A stretch of DNA of 64,000 bases, taken from positions 496,001 to 560,000 of the forward strand of contig JAIVFI010000017.1 of the NCBI GenBank assembly GCA_025558095.1, in the 5' to 3' direction. The translations under genes and the position numbers were made by a program. Position 1 is the stretch's first letter, and each line of letters begins with the position of its first letter. Shown here piece by piece: positions 20,599 through 32,424 of the stretch. The notes under the pieces were generated by a model. The model saw only the letters and a program-made list of their open reading frames with translations. It was not told the DNA's origin and did no database searches. The stretch comes from Hyaloraphidium curvatum (taxonomy: Eukaryota > Monoblepharomycota > Hyaloraphidiomycetes > Hyaloraphidiales > Hyaloraphidiaceae).

Positions 20599-21339
20599 TC
20601 AAACGGCAACCACGGCCGGCTGAGCCGCAACGACGTCGATCCCGCGCTCGATATCCTGCTCGAGCATGGCGACGAGCTCCCGCCCCATGTCCACCGTCTC
20701 CGCGCCGGTCCTCGCCCTTCCGACCCACTCCTTCAGCATGTCGACGCCACCGACCTCGACAAAGGCCGTTGCCGGGTAGCACCGCGTCCCCCACTCCGGG
20801 TGCACCAGCACCCCACACGACCCGACCTGCGTGATCGGGTACCGCAGCAGGCGGTGGTGGGAATCCACGTCCGGAAAGAGCGCCGGTCCCGAAGGAGAAT
20901 GGAAGGGCAGGCCCGTTGGCGGGTCTGTAAAGTCCAGGAAGACGCCGGACGAGTCGGCGAGCGTGGCGAGCCGCGCGAGGAGAGAATGGAGGTACTCGAG
21001 GCACAGATCCCGCTCTCTGTTGACGTCCGAATCCCAGGCCACGAGGTCCTGCACAGTCGGCTGGTAGACGCAGACGACGCAGAGCGAGTCCAGGACGGGT
21101 TTGGGGATCGACGGGAAGACGGGCTGCAGCTCGCGGAGCAGCGCCCGGGGAGGGGCATGGATCGAGATCTGGAACGTCCTGGCGTGTGCAGGTATCCTCG
21201 AGCCGTCCGGCGGGACGAACCGCGGGGCGCAGAGGGTCGGCAGGAGCAGGACCGAGCCCGAAGTCCGCGACGGCAAAGGGGGCATGTCGGAGTCTCTGGA
21301 GGTCTCCGTGGGAGCCGCAGAATGAGCTACAGGGTCCAT
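20599..21339 (-). CDS. MMADHC: MMADHC-like cobalamin trafficking protein (CblD)
   Basis: Partner of the cobalamin chaperone MMACHC; it routes cobalamin to methionine synthase in the cytosol and, in animals, to methylmalonyl-CoA mutase in mitochondria. Chosen start MDPVAHSAAPTETS gives 246 residues (human about 296). Family features in order: RTFQISIHAPPRALLRELQP, DSLCVVCVYQPTVQDLVAWD, ERDLCLEYLHSLLARLATL, GVFLDFTDPPTGLPF, and RYPITQVGSCGVLVHPEWGT. The frame stays open upstream to an ATG at 21666, 12 bp from the methionine synthase start. That stretch is Arg-rich and may be a targeting sequence, with a possible in-frame intron (CAG|GTCAGT near 21495 to TTCAG near 21380). It is divergent from the methionine synthase gene, which supports a shared function. 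Confidence 0.88.
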   Translation of the reverse strand: MDPVAHSAAPTETSRDSDMPPLPSRTSGSVLLLPTLCAPRFVPPDGSRIPAHARTFQISIHAPPRALLRELQPVFPSIPKPVLDSLCVVCVYQPTVQDLVAWDSDVNRERDLCLEYLHSLLARLATLADSSGVFLDFTDPPTGLPFHSPSGPALFPDVDSHHRLLRYPITQVGSCGVLVHPEWGTRCYPATAFVEVGGVDMLKEWVGRARTGAETVDMGRELVAMLEQDIERGIDVVAAQPAVVAV

Positions 21340-21436
21340 GACCCGGCAGACGAAGACCAGGAGGCCGAATAAAGTCCTGAACGAGGCAGAGCTGTGCAGG
21401 AACAGCTGCGGAGAATGAGGATCGAGCGCTGATCGA

Positions 21437-21446
21437 GTCACGTGAC
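21437..21446. promoter_or_regulatory. perfect palindrome GTCACGTGAC in shared promoter
   Basis: A 10-bp palindrome with a CACGTG E-box core lies 98 bp upstream of the MMADHC ATG and 232 bp upstream of the methionine synthase ATG. In budding yeast TCACGTG is the Cbf1 site of sulfur-amino-acid (MET) genes. Its place between two methionine-cycle genes makes a Cbf1-like bHLH site plausible, but CACGTG is common in GC-rich DNA. Confidence 0.4.
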
Positions 21447-21677
21447 GTGTTGAGCCCAGTTCGCGCAGCCCGGCCGCGCCCCAAACTGACCTGATTGCTT
21501 CTTCTCTGGTCGCCGTTGCGTTTGCCGTCTGGACTTCGTGGGCGGCGAGCACGCGGCCCCGAGGTCGAGTTTGTGTGCGGCGCAAACCCGGCGGAGCAAA
21601 CTTCCCTCCCGGCGGCGTCGCCTCCGCAGTCTTTCTCTGCCTGAGCCAGGAGGCCCGGGCGCCCAACTACCGCCGAC

Positions 21678-24600
21678 ATGGCACCCAACGGCGTCAACGG
21701 CCATGTTAATGGCCTGCCGAAAGTCGCCGCCGGCACAGTCGCCGGCGTGGAGCGCTACGGGATCGCGGGTGGGTGTCCTGGGACCGGTGGAGCGGGCCAC
21801 GTGCGTGGGCGGGCTGCCGGCTGTCGGGCCCGCTGGGTCGCAATCTCGGCGCGAGCTCTGCGGGGGGCAAGCAATGCCCCGGTGGACCTGTCCCGAGCGG
21901 GCGCGGACATGGGTTGCGATCCGTTGGGCATTGTTTACTCGACCTGCGGGACGCGGGAGGCGACCCTCGGGGGCTGCTCTGGTGATCTGCTGGGCTTTTG
22001 CGCCTCGGCAAGCGATCGGAAATGAGCCGCACAGTCGCCCGCTGCCGCATTTGCCGGCGAACGGGACGCCTGCCATGTTGATCAGACGGCTCCTGTGGAG
22101 CTGGGCCGTTGCCCCTCCTCTACCCCCTCTTCTTGAGCCTAATCTTCCCTTCCCTTGCAGATCTCGGAGCTTGGTTCGAGCAGGAGCTGCAGAAGCGGAT
22201 CATGTTCATCGACGGCGCCATGGGCACCATGATCCAGAAGCACCGCCTGCAGGAGAGCGATTTCCGCGGCGACCGGTTCGTGGACCACCCGAAGGACCTG
22301 AAGGGCAACAACGACCTGCTTTCCATCACGCGACCGGACGTCATCAAGGGCATCCACGCCGCGTACTTTTCCGCGGGCAGCGACATGGTCGAGACCAACA
22401 CCTTCTCGTCCACTTCCATCGCTCAGGCCGACTACAAGCTTGAGCACCTGGCGTACGAGCTGAACTACGCTTCGGCCAAGGTCGCGCGCGAGGCCGCGGA
22501 CGAGGTCTACGCCAAGGACCCCTCCCGCCCGCGGTTCGTCGCCGGCGCCATGGGCCCGACCAACCGGACGGCCTCCATCTCCCCGTCGGTCGAGAACCCC
22601 TCGTACCGCAACGTGTCGTTCGAGGAGCTCGTCGAGGCCTACGCGGAGCAGGCGCGCGGTCTGCTTGACGGCGGCGCGGACTTCCTGCTCGTCGAGACCA
22701 TCTTTGACACGCTCAACGCCAAGGCCGCCCTCTACGCGATCGACCTGCTCTTCACGGAGCAGGGCTACGCAAAGACCCCCGTCATGATTTCGGGCACCAT
22801 CGTGGACAACTCGGGCCGCACGCTGTCGGGCCAGACCGGCGAGGCCTTCGTGTCCTCGGTCATGCACTCGAACCCGACCGCCATCGGGCTCAACTGCGCG
22901 CTCGGCGCCGAGCAGATGCTGCCCTTCATCCAGCGCATCTCCAAGGCCGCGCCCTGCTTCACCATCTGCTACCCGAACGCGGGCCTGCCCAACACGTTCG
23001 GCGAGTACGACCAGGGCCCGGAGCACATGGGCAAGCTGGTGCGCACCTTCGCCGAGCTCGGCCTGCTCAACATCGTCGGCGGCTGCTGCGGCTCCACGCC
23101 GGACCACATCGCCGCGCTGTACGAGTTCTGCAAGTCGTACGCGCCGCGCAAGCGCCCGACCAAGCCGCTCGAGCACGCCCTCGTGGTCTCGGGCCTCGAG
23201 CCCCTCGTGATCCACCCGAGCACGACCGGCTTCGTCAACGTCGGCGAGCGCTGCAACGTCTCGGGCTCGCGCGTGTTCGCCAAGAAGGTGCTCAACGGCG
23301 AGTACGAGGAGGCGCTGGCCATCGCGCGCGCCCAGGTCGAGAACGGCGCCCAGGTCATCGACATCAACATGGACGAGGGTCTGCTCGACGGCAAAGCGGC
23401 CATGACCAAGTTCTGCAACTACATCGCCTCGGAGCCCGAGATCGCCAAGGTGCCGCTCATGATCGACTCGAGCAACTTCGAGGTCGTCCTGGCGGGCCTC
23501 AGGTGCGCGCAGGGCAAGTGCATCGTCAACTCGATCTCGCTCAAGGAGGGCGAGGAGGACTTCATCAAGAAGGCCAAGGTCGTGCACCGCTTCGGCGCCG
23601 CCGTCGTGGTCATGGCTTTCGACGAGGAGGGGCAGGCCACGGACGCGCAGCGCAAGTTCGACATCTGCAAGCGCTCGTACGACATCCTGACCAAGCAGGT
23701 CGGCTTCGCGCCCGAGGAGATCATCTTCGACCCCAACATCCTCACCATCGCGACGGGCATGGAGGAGCACAACAACTACGCGGTTGAGTTCATTGAGGCC
23801 TGCAAGCTGATCAAGGCGCACCTCCCCGGCGCCAAGATCTCGGGCGGCGTCTCCAACCTGTCCTTCTCCTTCCGCGGCAAGACCGTCATCCGCGAGTCGA
23901 TGCACTCTGTGTTTCTCTACCACGCCATCCAGGCGGGCATGGACATGGGCATCGTCAACGCCGGCGCACTGCCCATCTACTCGGACATCCCCGCGGACCT
24001 GCTGCAGCTCTGCGAGGACGCCATCTGGAACCGTGACCCCGAGATCACGGAAAAGATCCTGGCCTACGCCGCGCGGACGGGCGAGAAGAAGGGCGAGGCC
24101 GCTGCGGAGGAGGAGGAGTGGCGCAAGGGCGACGTCGAGTCGAGGCTCTCCCACGCCCTCGTCAAGGGGCTCACCAACTTCATCGTCGAGGACACGGAGG
24201 AGGCCCGGAAGAACTCGGAGCGCTACCCGAGGCCGCTCAACGTCATCGAGGGGCCGCTGATGCAGGGCATGTCGATCGTCGGCGAGCTGTTCGGGACCGG
24301 CAAGATGTTCCTTCCTCAGGTCATCAAGAGCGCTAGGTGCGCATTCTCTGGCTGCTCGCAAACTGTTTTGCGCTGACTATCCAGCACATTCCAGGGTCAT
24401 GAAGAAGGCCGTGGCCCACCTCATCCCGTTCATGGAGCAGGAGCGGCTGGAGAACCTCGCCGCCCGCGGCATCGACGCGAGCTCCGCCGAGTCCGCCGAC
24501 TCGGCCTACAACGGGACCGTCGTTCTGGCCACCGTCAAGGGCGACGTGCACGACATTGGCAAGAACATCGTCGGCGTCGTGCTCGGCTGCAACAACTACA

Positions 24601-26050
24601 AGGTCATCGACATGGGCGTCATGGTGCCGGCGGAAAAGATCCTCGACACGGTGGAGAAGGAAAAGGCCGACATCCTCGGCCTTTCGGGTCTCATCACCCC
24701 GTCGCTCGACGAGATGGTCTTCGTCGCCAAGGAGATGGAGCGCCGCGGCATGAGCGTGCCGCTGCTCATCGGCGGCGCCACCACGAGCAAGATGCACACG
24801 GCCGTCAAGATCGCCCCGCGCTACTCCAAGCCCGCGATCCACGTGCTCGATGCCTCGCGCTCCGTCGTCGTGGTCTCCAGCCTGCTCGACGAGACCAACC
24901 GCGATGACTACATCCAGGACGTCGCGGAGGAGTACGAGGACCTGCGCGACGAGCATTACGAGGGCCTGAAGGAGCGCAAGTACGTGCCGATCGAAAAGGC
25001 CCGTGCCGCTGGCATGCACATCAAGTGGGACGGGTACGCGCCGACCAAGCCCGCTTTCCTCGGCACCAAGCTCTTCAACGACTACCCGCTCGACAAGCTC
25101 GTGGGCCACATCGACTGGAACCCCTTCTTCCAGACCTGGCAGCTCCGCGGCAAGTACCCGAACCGCGGCTACCCCAAGATCTTCAACGATGAGACGGTGG
25201 GCGAGGAGGCCAAGAAGCTCTTTGCCGACGCCCAGCACTGGCTCAAGCAGATCGTGGACAAGAAGCTGCTCAAGACCCGCGGGATCGTCGGCTTCTACCC
25301 CGCCAACGCCGAGGGCGACGACGTCGTGCTCTACGCGCCCGACGACGACGGTGGCCGGACCAAGCAGGTCGGGACCTTCTTCGGCCTGCGGCAGCAGGCG
25401 GAGAAGGAGCCCGACTCGGGCGACCACTACCTCTGCCTCTCGGACTTTGTGGCGCCCAAGGCAACGGGGATCAAGGACTACGTGGGCGCTTTCGCCGTCT
25501 CGGTCGGCCTCGGCGTCGACGAGATCTGCAAGGACTTGGAGAAGGCGCACGACGACTACGCGATCATCATGGTCAAGGCCCTCGCCGACCGGCTGACGGA
25601 GGCCTTTGCCGAGCTGATCCACGAGGAGATCCGCCGCGCGCACTGGGGTTATGCACAGGACGAGCAGCTCACGGTCGAGGAGGAGCTCGCGGTCAAGTAC
25701 CGCGGCATCCGGCCCGCTCCGGGCTACCCTTCGCAACCGGACCACACGGAAAAGCAGTTCATGTGGAAGCTTATGGACATTGAAGCCCAGACGGGCATCG
25801 GCCTGACCGAGTCGCTGGCCATGACGCCCGCCGCGTCGGTTTCCGCGGTCGTCTTTGCCCACCCCGACAGCAAGTACTTTGCCGTCGGCAAGATCGGCCA
25901 GGACCAGGTGCGCTCTGGTGGCTCGCACACTTTTTTTCTTCCTGCTGACATTCTCTTGTTCAGATTACGGACTATGCTTCCCGCAAGGGGATGAAGAAGG
26001 ATGTCGTCGAACGCTGGCTGTCGAGCATCCTCAACTACGAGACGGAGTAA
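21678..26050 (+). CDS. METH: cobalamin-dependent methionine synthase
   Basis: Transfers a methyl group from 5-methyltetrahydrofolate to homocysteine with methylcobalamin as carrier. Four exons keep the frame: 21678-21768 ([15 protein letters not shown]), 22161-24336, 24395-25907 and 25964-26050, about 1288 residues, close to E. coli MetH (1227). The homocysteine domain has [14 protein letters not shown] and zinc cysteines in [10 protein letters not shown] and [11 protein letters not shown]. The folate domain has [23 protein letters not shown] and [11 protein letters not shown]. The B12 domain has [12 protein letters not shown], whose His is the cobalt ligand, and [18 protein letters not shown]. 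The reactivation domain has [15 protein letters not shown]. All four modules are present and intact. Intron 1 is about 390 nt, unusually long here. No B12-independent MetE was seen in the window. Confidence 0.97.
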
Positions 26051-26265: not shown

Positions 26266-26513
26266 ATTATTGCAACCGCACTATGACCAGGTTGCCTGGC
26301 CGAGCATCGTTGCGTTCCCAACTAGGCGATCTTCGCAATGTGCTTGCTTTCCAAACGCCCCTCCACCTGCCTTCTGCCTCCTGGCCGACTATCGGCACTG
26401 GGCAATCTCATCGCCTCGGGGGGCTGTGTTAGGTGAGTTTTCGCGTCCGATCAAAGCCGCCACCAGTTTGTCAAACTTCAACACGCCCGCAGGCCGGTGA
26501 AGGCTCTCTGCCG

Positions 26514-28737
26514 ATGCCGCCACCGGCGGCGTGCCTGAATTGCCACGATTCGAAGAAGCGGTGCCTTCCGGGCGTTTCGGCGGGCTTCGGGGACGCCCGG
26601 TGCCTACGTTGCCTTAGACTCGGACGGCGCTGTGTCTGGCCATCGCCGTTGACCATCCCGGATGGGGGCAACGTGGACGGGAGCGGCAACGCCAGCGTGC
26701 AGCGTCGAAGGGCACCGAAGATTGTCTTCCCTTCCCTCGTGACACTGCCCGGCCTCGGCAAGTCAAATGACCCCGTTCGGACATTTGGCGCCACAAAGAA
26801 TACCGGCATCCCGTTCTCCCCAACCGGCTCGGTCCCCTCAGTGGTCGCCCGCGGCCCTCCCGTGACCTCGATGCCCCCGGCCGACGTCGTTCTCGCCGCC
26901 GTCGCCGGTTTCCTCGACACAGAGCACCTCTCGCTACACTACGTGAATCGCGCCGTCTTTGAAGCCGCGTTCACAGCATCCTCGGGCTCTCCGTCGCCCG
27001 AGATCCGGGCCGTGGCTATTCAGCTATATGGGGGCCCACCTCGGGCTCTACTCTACGCCATTGCTTCCGCGGGGATGCGGCGTGCGATGGTTCCGGGACT
27101 GGAGGACATGGTTCGGTGGCGGTTTGCCCGGGAGTGTGCCGTCATGGCGAAGGATCTGCTTCTGGCTGGGTACTATGCCCACTTGTCTGGAGGCTCTGGC
27201 GCTGGACCGGCCCGCACCCCCGTCTCGGAGATTGAGGCGCTGCAAACGCTTGGAGCTCTCAATTATGGGACGTATTTCTCGGGCTACTCGACAGCTGTCC
27301 GGTTACCGCTGCAGGAACGGATAAACGAGCTGTGCCTCAGCCTTTGTTTTGACTCTTCCGGTGCTCCCCGCTTTGGTCGTTTGCCGCCACGCGATTGCGC
27401 CGAATGGCTGAAAAGGGAAATCATCCAGCGCAACGCCATCGTGGTTTCTTGGGCAGGAGCAGATTGGTCATATTATATTTTCACGCCGATTCCCACGGAT
27501 TGGTTTTCGAAGCCGTTTTCTTTGCCCGCCGCGGACTTCTTTTTTGATGATCCAAATCCCATAGCGGCGTTCAATGCGCTGTACGGTGGACTGGCACCCC
27601 ACCGCTCCGTTGTCTTGGACTTTTCCCCGTTACTCCAACCGGACCCGGACTTCGCCCAAATCTCGGTCGCCGTGACTCTCGCCATCTCCTCGGTCTTCAA
27701 CGGGCAAGCGAGTGTCAAGGCACTCATGGCACTCAACGGCGCTGTGCGGGTCCACCGCTGCTTCATGCAGAATCTGGCCGTGCAGAGCGGTATTGACGTG
27801 ACTCGGATCGCGGCTTCGGACCCCGCGGACGACGACCCCATGGAGGCGCGGTACAGACGCTTATCAGCTGTATTCGACCACGTGATCTCTACGACCTACG
27901 CGGCGATGCCGCCGGGGATCGGTGCGGCCCTTATGGAAGGCGACCCGCGACCGTTGATCCGGTCTAGGATGTTCCCAGACGCGCGGCAAGCACACGTGGT
28001 GTTGGGATACATCCTCGCGCTCCGATCTACCGTGATTGAACATTGGGTATCTCCAGCTCCCCGGATCGATCCGAGTTTCTTTACCTCCCCCGCGCTTGCC
28101 CGGATCCTCGCAGAGGGCGTCACTATAATCGCCACCGCCACCGCGCAGCTTGACATTGATCCCCCGGGACCGACGTACTCGCATCTCGTGGCCTTTTATG
28201 CGGTGCTTAAGGCCGGGATGCTGGCCATTTCGGTGACCAGTTTGTTGAGGGAGTTGGGCGGGGTGGATGCGATTCATGTGACGGCGATACAGGCTGCGGA
28301 AGAGGATGCGTTGGGGGCTCTACGGTACCTCGAGGCATGCTGTGAAGTTGGATCGCCTCCAATCCGTATGTTTTCGTGTCTCGTTGGTGCCCGTCGCTTG
28401 AAATGGCCAATTGATTGTTCCTTCAGTCATGCTCAGTCTGCGGAGCTACCAAAGGGCCCTGGAACTCAACGACATCCGCCAACCCGCCAGCAACCTTTCA
28501 TCCTCCTTCACCCCGACCCCGGCTTACTCGCCCCCGCGCATCTACTCAGCCGGACAGCATGAGCCGTTCCTTCCCCGCACCCGGACCGACGGTTCGTCCT
28601 ACGGTGGCTCACCGCTGTCGTCCTACGGATCGGTAGCAGGCGGGAAGCAAAGTGAGGTGATAGGCAAGGGTGTGTTTGATGTGGATTCTGTGATTGGGGC
28701 TGTGGCCACGGCGGGGTACGGGTTGGATGGTTCCTGA
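26514..28737 (+). CDS. Zn2Cys6 fungal-type transcription regulator
   Basis: Binuclear zinc cluster near the N-terminus: CLNCHDSKKRC, then CLRCLRLGRRC after 12 residues, i.e. C-x2-C-x6-C-x12-C-x2-C-x6-C. Start MPPPAACLNC at 26514; an upstream frame from 26433 lacks clear support. The middle (EIRAVAIQLYGGPPRALLYAI, MVRWRFARECAVMAKDLLLAG) resembles the fungal-specific TF middle region. An intron (about 28366-28428, GTATGT to TTCAG) joins SPPI to MLSLRSYQRALELND. It ends VATAGYGLDGS. About 720 residues, usual size. Target genes are unknown; lying next to the methionine synthase gene is suggestive at most. A degenerate direct repeat brackets the gene. Confidence 0.85.
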
Positions 28738-28848: not shown

Positions 28849-30323
28849 TCAGAAGAGACATTCACTCCACGCCTCGCCGTCGATGCTCCCGTCCGGTGCC
28901 TTCCGCAGCCCGCGAATCTCGGACGGTGCACCAGCTCCTTCCTTGCCGACCTCGACGACGCTGTGAAGGTGGATCCGGAGGTCGACCTTGATCGCCCTTT
29001 TGTCGTCAGGCCCGACGTGGATCCAGGGAGAGGCGGGATCCATGATCGTGGCAAAGGCGTCGGAAAGAAGCTCTTGGAAAAAGAACCGGCCAGACGTGCC
29101 CAACTGCAGCAAGAGAACGTAGGATGTACGGTTCCAAGGGCCAACCGCTTGTTGAGAAGCAACGGGCCGGAGGGAGAACGCGAGGCGCGCATGGTGCACT
29201 CGAGTGTCCACGATCACCGGTCCTGACCTCACGGAGCCCGACCCGTAGATGAAGCTGTCGATCCGAAGCTTGACGGGGCCGGCGAAGAACGTGGCGGAGG
29301 GCAGCTGGACGCGCCAAAGAGGATCTTGCCTTTCCGCGTCGGTAGGGGCAACAAGGGCGTTCGGGAGGGAGATCGTGAGCTGCTGGTAGGCGCAGCATCC
29401 ATTGCCCGAATCGAGAGGAGGCAAGAGCGCTTTGAGGAGCCCGTGGTGATAGGAAACGAGGGAAAGGTGGGCAGCGAGGTCCTTGCGCTTCACCTGGTCG
29501 GCGATGTGCGTGAGCTGCGCAACGTTGTTCCCGAGAGGGGAACGAACCTTGCACGAGCATCCCGGTTCCGAGCACGAGATCATGCGGTGGTCGCAGGAGC
29601 TCGCGTGATCTTGAAGCGCGTCACGGGGAACGAGCTGGTCGCATCCATCGTTGCCGCAGGAGACGGGAACCTTCGGGCACACTCCCTGGTGATCCTGAAC
29701 GGCATGGGAAGCAGGTCAACCACAATATTGTGAAGGAAAGCAAGATCGATCACCTCCATCAAGGCGGGCGGCTTGATGACGGCGCCACAGTCGGAGCACT
29801 TGGCCTTGGTGCACGTATCCCAGTGAGCGGTGAGATCTGCGACATCTCCGATCCACGGACACTCCAGAGGGCACGGTGTCGACAGGTTGAGCAGGGTACG
29901 AAAGGCGAAAGCGTTCGTCTGCAACTTGACGAGATCGCGCGGTGCGAAAGGCCTGACGCATTGCGGACAGGTTGCCTTTCCGCCATGCGCATTCTTCCGT
30001 ACTTCTTCGATGCAAGCGAGGCAGTAGACGTGGGCGCACGGCAGCAGAATCGGCTCGCGGTGCGGGAAGGCGATCCCGAGGCAGACCGCGCACTCCCACA
30101 CCTTCCTGGCCCTTTCGGCGAATTGTTCATTGGCCGCGACGCGTCCCTCCTCTTCGACCTCCTGTTGCGCTTCGTTCCCGATTCCAGTGGAGCTCAACTT
30201 CCGCTTCGCACACGCTCCGGTCAGACCGCGCTCCGCCGACTGTCCGAGTCCGAGCAATCCAGACTCTTCGCGGTTTGGAATGGAGTCCACCCCGCCATCT
30301 TCGGAAGAAAGCGCAGCGCCCAT
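28849..30323 (-). CDS. RING finger, TRAF-like E3 ubiquitin ligase (paralog A)
   Basis: Likely E3 ligase. Start MGAALSSEDGGVDS. The RING finger reads CAVCLGIAFPHREPILLPC, then HVYCLACIEEV and CPQC (C3HC4). Cys/His-rich TRAF-type repeats follow: CPLECPWIGDVADLTAHWDTC and KCSDCGAVIKPP. An intron (about 29753-29694) joins PPALME to DHQGVCPKVPVSCG. The second exon continues with CDQLVPRDALQDHASSC and CSEPGC. A C-terminal domain of about 200 residues (QQLTISLPNALVAP, FFAGPVKLRIDSFI, ASPWIHVG) ends WSECLF. The N-terminal architecture matches TRAF-like ligases; the last domain is not recognised by name. Tandem partner of paralog B, 166 bp apart, same strand, same intron position. Confidence 0.8.
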
Positions 30324-30489
30324 GAGCGCGCGCGGGAAGTGCGGCGAAAGGGAAAGTTGGTGTGAAGATCGGTGACGGGTCCGATCGCGAAACATCAAAC
30401 AGAGCCAAGGAAAAATGAGCTATGTTCATCGAAGGCTACAATCTAGGACAGACCCGTATCACTTGAAGCTCTTGCCGGCTTAGACTAGA

Positions 30490-32095
30490 TTAGAAAGGAC
30501 ACTCGCTCCACCGTTCGCCGTCGATGAAGCCATTGGCATCCTTTCCAAGCGCACTGTACTGAGCGGGTGATTCCGATCCTTCCTTGCCGACTTCGACGAC
30601 CTTGTGCAGGTAACAGCGGAAATCGATCTTGATCACCCTTTGTCCATCCTCCGTGTGGATCCAAGGCGAGCTGGGATTGTTCAGCACCGCACATGCGTTG
30701 GAGGGGAGCTTCTGAACGGGAGACGTAGTGCTCCGGCCGGCCAGAAGAGCATAGGTCGTGAAGTTCCAGCCAGAAGCACGATTGTCCGAACGCACCATTC
30801 TGAAGGAGAATGCAAGTCTGACGTGATGAAGTCGGGCGTCCGTGGCCAGTCCAAGCATAGCATGAAGGCAGTTGTCCGACAAGACTTTTATAGACACGCG
30901 AAACCTTAGGGGACCAGCAAAGACATTGACGGTAGATATCGTAAAGCGCCATGAGGGATCCTGCTTCTGTGCATCTGTACGGGCCGGAACCTTTGCCGGA
31001 AGCAAAATAATAAGCTGCTGATACGTCCAAGAGCAGTTGCCCGATGATAGAGGCGGAAGAATCTCTTTCAGACGGCGATTGTGCAGAGTAAAGTCGCTCA
31101 AGTGCGCGTCCAGGTCCATCCGCTTGACCTATCGCTTCAAAGTAAGCCAGCGCCATCACAATGGGCCATGACGGACGGGAGGTAAACGCGCAAGGACGGA
31201 TCCTGCTTCTGCGCATCCGTGGGCGGCACCAGGTCGTCCGGGAGAAAGATCGTGGCCCGCTGGTACGTGCTGCAACAGTTGCCGGACTCGAGCGGAGGGA
31301 AAAGCGCCTTGATCTGGGTGTAGTGGAGCTGGTAGTTGTCTCGGTGACGGGAAAGATCCTTGCGCTTCACCTGCGACGCTCGCGATAAGCTACCTTCCAT
31401 CGACTCTTTCCGAGAGCAACACACTTTCTCAATGCATCCTGGCTCGGAACAGGAAACCATGCCGTGGGGGCAGGTCTCAAGATGACCTTGAAAGGTCTCT
31501 CGCGGGACACGCTGGCCACACCCTTCGTTGCTGCACGGCACGGGGACCTTGGGGCAGACTTCGACATGGTCCTACGCAGCAGCGTTAATGAGCATTGTCG
31601 GCAGTGGATGCCCAGCGAACAGAATCTGACCTTCTTGGTGGCGGGAGGCTTGAACACATCGCCGCAGCCTTCGCACTTTGCATTCACGCACGAATCCCAG
31701 TGGCTTGAGAGGTCTCCGACGTCTCCAATCCAAGCGCATTCGAGGGGGCACGGCACCGAAAGGTTGAGCAGCACCCGATACGACAGCGCCTGACTCTTCA
31801 ACGGAACCAGATCGCCAACGCCGAACGCCTTCGAACACGACGGGCACGCAGAAGCTCCTTGCTCCGCTCTTTTGTGCACTTCCTCGATGCAGGGACGGCA
31901 GAAAACGTGCGTGCACGGGAGAACGGTCGGGTCGCGGTGCGGAAAGGCGATCCCGAGGCACATCGCGCACTCCCACTGCTTTCGCGCCTTTTCGACGAAG
32001 CTCGCGTTTGCCGCGTTGCGCCGCTCCTGCTCGAGCCGCTCGCGCTCCTCTTCGGCCTTTTCCGCCGCGGTCTTCTTCCGCTTCGAGCCGGCCAT
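30490..32095 (-). CDS. RING finger, TRAF-like E3 ubiquitin ligase (paralog B) with internal duplication
   Basis: Same architecture as paralog A. Start MAGSKRKKTAAEKAEEE. RING: CAMCLGIAFPHRDPTVLPC, HVFCRPCIEEV, CPSC. TRAF-type repeats: CPLECAWIGDVGDL, KCEGCGDVFKPP. An intron near 31630-31565 matches that of paralog A. The linker module starting QVKR-DL occurs twice: KDLSRHRDNYQLHYTQIK...QDPSLR (about 31187-31388), then MDLDAHLSDFTLHNRRLK...QDPSWR (about 30940-31128). Between them the first copy runs into a TGA (GAGLL stop at 31137). A 59-nt GT-AG intron at 31129-31187 would skip the stop and keep the frame; otherwise the gene is broken. It ends WSECPF. Whether it makes full-length protein is open. 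Confidence 0.65.
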
Positions 32096-32424
32096 CGGTG
32101 CGGCCGCCGACGCGACGCGACGCGCGCGCCCCGAAGGGGCGGCCGACGCGCTAGGTAGTGAAAAGAGCCGTTTCCGACGGCGGCGTCGAGTATCTGCCCG
32201 CCGCAGGGGTCGGGGTGCGGTTTGCGCAGGACCGCGTGTCAGACGCAACAGGTTGCACCAACTGCGCTAGGGACTCGCTCACGACCACCGGCTACAGGAC
32301 GCAAAATCGTCAGAAAGAAAGAAAAGCAGACTGCAATTGACCGACTGTTGTACACGCGGATTGAACTGACCGTCATCCTTAACCAGCTTCCACATCCGAG
32401 CACAACCGACCCAACCTCCACACC
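32096..32424. other. intergenic region
   Basis: 329 bp between the start of RING-TRAF paralog B and the end of the WW-domain gene, both on the minus strand. It should hold the promoter of paralog B. Nothing else was recognised. Confidence 0.35.

Follow-up and report, generated by a model that had tools for sequence, protein, structure and literature searches.

Head-to-head genes for a predicted cobalamin-dependent methionine synthase and an MMADHC homologue in Hyaloraphidium curvatum

In humans, MMADHC (CblD) binds the C-terminal half of methionine synthase (MTR) directly and loads it with cobalamin (B12), whereas binding by MMACHC (CblC) is weak or absent (PMC13376404). Human MTR is made soluble and stabilized by co-expression of MMADHC, and in the loading reaction Cys261 is the cobalt ligand whilst Cys262 breaks the Co–S bond (PMC12272874). 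Orlowska et al. (2021, PMC8085122) reported B12 enzymes from 50 of 59 fungi outside the Dikarya. In their survey, MetH occurs in 53 species, CblD in 47 and CblC in 20, and MetH and MetE co-occur in 45 of the early-diverging fungal genomes surveyed. The survey describes the role of CblD outside animals as undocumented, leaves open how fungi manage without CblC and, in the text consulted, does not treat the order of these genes or the linkage of MTRR.

The H. curvatum system resembles that of humans in its full-domain MetH, MMADHC core and diflavin MTRR, the human counterparts of which are direct functional partners (PMC13376404, PMC12272874). The human system, however, requires MMACHC and has a Cys261–Cys262 pair where the fungal MMADHC has Ser–Cys, and human MMADHC possesses a long N-terminus with a mitochondrial leader that the fungal protein lacks. 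In common with other early-diverging fungi (PMC8085122), H. curvatum has MetH and CblD, a mutase branch and vertical descent with the eukaryotes, and CblC is often missing in this group; most of these fungi also carry MetE, in contrast to H. curvatum, in which it was not found. Eukaryotic divergent pairs from a single pathway likewise lie head to head across a short common intergenic region and have related functions, but here the partners are an enzyme and the predicted chaperone of its own metallocofactor. An earlier note on this DNA had claimed novelty for the physical linkage. B12 enzymes, and CblD in the absence of CblC, were already known from early-diverging fungi (PMC8085122), whereas no report of physical linkage between MetH and MMADHC was found in the literature searched, which covers few subscription papers; what may be new is this linkage and its implications, both gene families being known.

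The methionine synthase and MMADHC genes

The genome (31.9 Mb, 55 contigs) carries the pair on a 732 kb contig, C17, within the window, i.e. the whole 64-kb stretch of DNA that was analysed. Neither the window nor the linked stretches examined contained any N. The features, in window positions, were as follows.

20599–21339, minus strand: MMADHC (CblD) coding sequence, 246 aa (PF10229, 6e-17; alignments to PDB 5a4r, 5cuz, 6x8z and 9mrs_D)
21340–21677, unstranded: 338-bp common intergenic region, candidate bidirectional promoter (start-to-start distance)
21438–21445, unstranded: palindrome TCACGTGA (bHLH/Cbf1-type box), a lead only (sole copy in the window; picked post hoc)
21678–21768, plus strand: MetH exon 1 (splice model)
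22161–24336, plus strand: MetH exon 2, with homocysteine, folate and B12-cap domains (PF02574, PF00809, PF02607)
24395–25907, plus strand: MetH exon 3, with B12-binding and activation domains (PF02310, PF02965)
25964–26050, plus strand: MetH exon 4 and stop codon (splice model; end-to-end human MTR match)

MMADHC is a single-exon ORF (ATG at 21339, end at 20599), and MetH runs from an ATG at 21678 to the stop at 26050 in four exons encoding 1288 aa with no internal stops; its three introns (392, 58 and 56 nt) are all GT–AG. The coordinates and head-to-head description in the earlier note proved correct, the ATG-to-ATG gap being exactly 338 bp.

The homocysteine, folate, B12-cap, B12 and activation domains were all detected by Pfam in one MetH chain, which aligned end to end with human MTR (residues 39–1288, 1805 bits). 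The motifs NCALG, GGCCG (Zn cysteines), DVHDIG (the DxHxxG cobalt-ligand motif) and RPAPGYP (AdoMet) were intact, in agreement with the earlier description of the gene as complete, and from these domains and motifs the product is predicted to be a cobalamin-dependent methionine synthase (EC 2.1.1.13). Identity was 65.8 % to human MTR and 60.3 % to the best bacterium. In a quick tree with 76 bacterial MetH proteins, in which the human sequence covers 950 residues, MetH paired with human MTR (SH-aLRT 100), on which ground a bacterial origin was rejected; with this grouping and the introns, eukaryotic descent is supported, and contamination or bacterial transfer is unlikely for this gene. The codon GC3 of MetH resembled that of neighbouring genes. 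The Zn2Cys6 domain is nearly confined to fungi, and at least 96 matches to it were counted in the genome and none in the prokaryote controls, which, together with the spliceosomal introns, supports a fungal nuclear locus.

A second MetH-like sequence was present on contig C1 (888831–891752, L020:3832–6753, minus strand) as a 973-aa open frame with bacterial-type MetH folate, B12 and partial activation domains but without a homocysteine domain. It was Verrucomicrobiota-like (67 % to L107), was fused to an unrelated N-terminus and was flanked on both sides by retroelement-like ORFs; its origin may lie in the transfer and capture of a fragment.

The neighbour of MetH was upheld as an MMADHC homologue: it matched PF10229 well above the cut-off (62.7 bits against 27, E = 6e-17, scored with the ORF lengthened at its upstream end to 21666) and aligned with human and mouse MMADHC structures (E = 6e-15 to 2e-12). 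This was the single PF10229 match genome-wide; there was none in 14 prokaryote controls, and no relatives were found in viral contigs. It is the core match that places the protein in this family, Cys261 being a feature of the human protein. In the gap-free part of the alignment, Ser occupies the position of human Cys261 and Cys is kept at 262, so that the human-type Cys261 Co–S ligand is absent. Because Ser–Cys replaces Cys261–Cys262, the published human loading chemistry is not transferable unchanged, and that of the fungal protein may differ. The N-terminus is short, with about 56 aa ahead of the core, begins with acidic residues and contains no mitochondrial leader evident on inspection of the sequence, which would fit service to a cytosolic MetH. 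A single-sequence AlphaFold model of MMADHC (pLDDT 37) was set aside.

Other B12 genes and their linkage

MTRR was picked among the flavodoxin-domain genes at C17:477907–480313 (minus strand, two exons, 764 aa), where both the FMN and the FAD/NADPH halves were present and the reductase half matched human MTRR best (156 bits, compared with 117 for P450 reductase). On inspection, other flavodoxin-domain frames, on C6 and C2, resemble NDOR1/Tah18 and a P450 reductase with a membrane-type anchor, respectively. Methylmalonyl-CoA mutase was located at C2:389.2–391.4k, MMAA at C2:422.6–423.5k and MMAB at C4:502k; matches to PF13669 (epimerase) were too generic to assign, the best candidate lying at C7:369.2–369.6k. 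Canonical MetE was not found genome-wide, the sole match to PF01717, a model that finds matches in 10 control genomes, being partial (28 bits, in a 358-aa frame). Since MetH is present and canonical MetE was not found, methionine synthesis in H. curvatum is probably B12-dependent. MMACHC was not found genome-wide with the Pfam model or the human protein (its letters checked against the PDB), in a search that had no positive control and in which a miss does not prove absence, although the same tool found the small, diverged MMADHC. The mutase and MTRR, which the earlier note had listed as genes to look for, are thus present, and canonical MetE, whose absence it had also listed, was not found. 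The note had further counted a lack of MMACHC or MTRR against the pair, and here the outcome was divided, MTRR being found and MMACHC not. The missing MMACHC does not refute the pair because fungi with CblD but without CblC are common (PMC8085122) and in humans it is MMADHC rather than MMACHC that binds and loads MTR (PMC13376404).

On C17, 36 kb separate MTRR from MMADHC. The named genes in between (Pex16, FSAF1, polysaccharide deacetylase and Sel1) are unrelated, and MTRR is therefore loosely linked to the pair rather than clustered with it. In humans, the MTR, MMADHC and MTRR genes are dispersed. When the six B12 genes were placed at random, on the assumption of equal contig sizes, 3.6 % of trials brought any pair within 40 kb, about 0.01 % (about 1 in 10 000) brought at least three pairs that close and 0.014 % (about 1.4 in 10 000) put MMADHC within 3 kb of MetH; the three pairs are not three independent events, as MTRR is near both members of the adjacent pair.

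Contig C2 offers another example of a B12 enzyme loosely linked to its helper, the mutase and MMAA being 31 kb apart there (389–424k, L032–L036). Between them, an ORF on the minus strand (C2:397236–399308, L033:2236–4308) carries a Cas12f1-like TNB domain (PF07282, 1.3e-7) and represents a Fanzor/TnpB-like protein without a PDB sequence match; just upstream of it, a 1374-aa ORF matched no Pfam family.

The common intergenic region

With its head-to-head orientation and a gap below 1 kb, the MMADHC–MetH pair has the geometry of a bidirectional gene pair, and from this one genome it is plausible that the two genes share one promoter region. A divergent gap of 338 bp is ordinary in compact fungal genomes and alone is no sign of co-regulation. 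The palindrome TCACGTGA, 98 bp from the MMADHC ATG and 232 bp from the MetH ATG, occurs once in the window against 0.85 copies expected window-wide, and two copies of the 12-mer TCACGTGACGTG were counted genome-wide, compared with three matches for its backward-read control. CACGTG was not enriched in the window, and no E-box was found within 800 bp upstream of MTRR; as a regulatory element the E-box is a post hoc candidate and a lead only.

The next gene 3′ of MetH (window 26433–28562, plus strand) has Zn2Cys6-type spacing (C-X2-C-X6-C-X12-C-X2-C-X6-C), with the Pfam Zn_clus match below the cut-off (E = 0.026), and its product could be a local regulator. Beyond it, at 28849–32248 on the minus strand, two or more RING/TRAF-like zinc-finger ORFs in tandem, alike in sequence, indicate local gene duplication.

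Proposed cofactor loading and alternative explanations

Our preferred reading, to which we assign a probability of roughly 0.6, is that MetH and MMADHC are a gene pair that functions in remethylation and is probably co-expressed, with MMADHC serving MetH directly without MMACHC. The genes would make up the module through which an early-diverging fungus carries out B12-dependent methionine synthesis in the cytosol. If the proteins act as their human counterparts do, MMADHC would bind cobalamin, dock on the C-terminal half of MetH and pass the cofactor on; MetH would methylate homocysteine with methyl groups taken from methyltetrahydrofolate, and oxidized cobalamin would be reduced by MTRR with NADPH and remethylated from AdoMet. 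The divergent layout suggests that chaperone and enzyme are most likely co-transcribed from one short promoter region, and the solubility of human MTR on co-expression with MMADHC, together with direct loading, gives a concrete reason for making both proteins together. As MMACHC was not detected and the Cys261 position is Ser, the handover would probably dispense with CblC and rely on one loop cysteine, at the Cys262 position. Against this, human loading uses both Cys261 and Cys262 (PMC12272874), of which the predicted fungal protein keeps one. A bolder version, which is tentative and rather unlikely, takes MetH and MMADHC, with MTRR nearby, as the remnant of an old fungal B12-remethylation cluster in which MMADHC, as the sole cytosolic B12 chaperone, loads MetH without MMACHC via that cysteine.

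The two proteins could also be pathway partners whose genes became adjacent through chance shuffling and have separate promoters inside the gap, an explanation that deserves weight even though we consider it unlikely. Compact genomes often contain divergent genes this close together, none of the named neighbours is related and this is one case in one genome; the odds of about 1 in 10 000 for MMADHC as the divergent neighbour of MetH, and the linkage of MTRR on the same contig and of the mutase with MMAA, make chance less likely. It is improbable that MMADHC works chiefly for the mitochondrial branch, that of methylmalonyl-CoA mutase, and lies beside MetH incidentally: the genome does encode the mutase as well as MMAA and MMAB, but the gene is linked to MetH and MTRR rather than to the mutase, the short N-terminus with its acidic start has no leader-like stretch, and the core of human MMADHC alone binds and loads MTR (PMC13376404). 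The joining of the two genes by assembly error, contamination or recent bacterial transfer has been largely refuted and is very improbable. The fragment on C1 (888.8–891.8k) shows that foreign MetH DNA did enter the assembly or genome; MetH in the window, however, has three GT–AG introns, pairs with human MTR (support 100), resembles its neighbours in GC3 and sits among fungal genes inside a 732-kb N-free contig of a fungal genome, and MMADHC was matched in 0 of the 14 prokaryote controls.

The arrangement of genes in H. curvatum connects CblD with MetH and MTRR, and neither CblC nor MetE was detected in the genome. Loading of methionine synthase is a step that fails in human homocystinuria, and H. 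curvatum, whose MMADHC lacks the cobalt-holding cysteine of the human protein, offers a natural test case for the loading of methionine synthase by CblD on its own.
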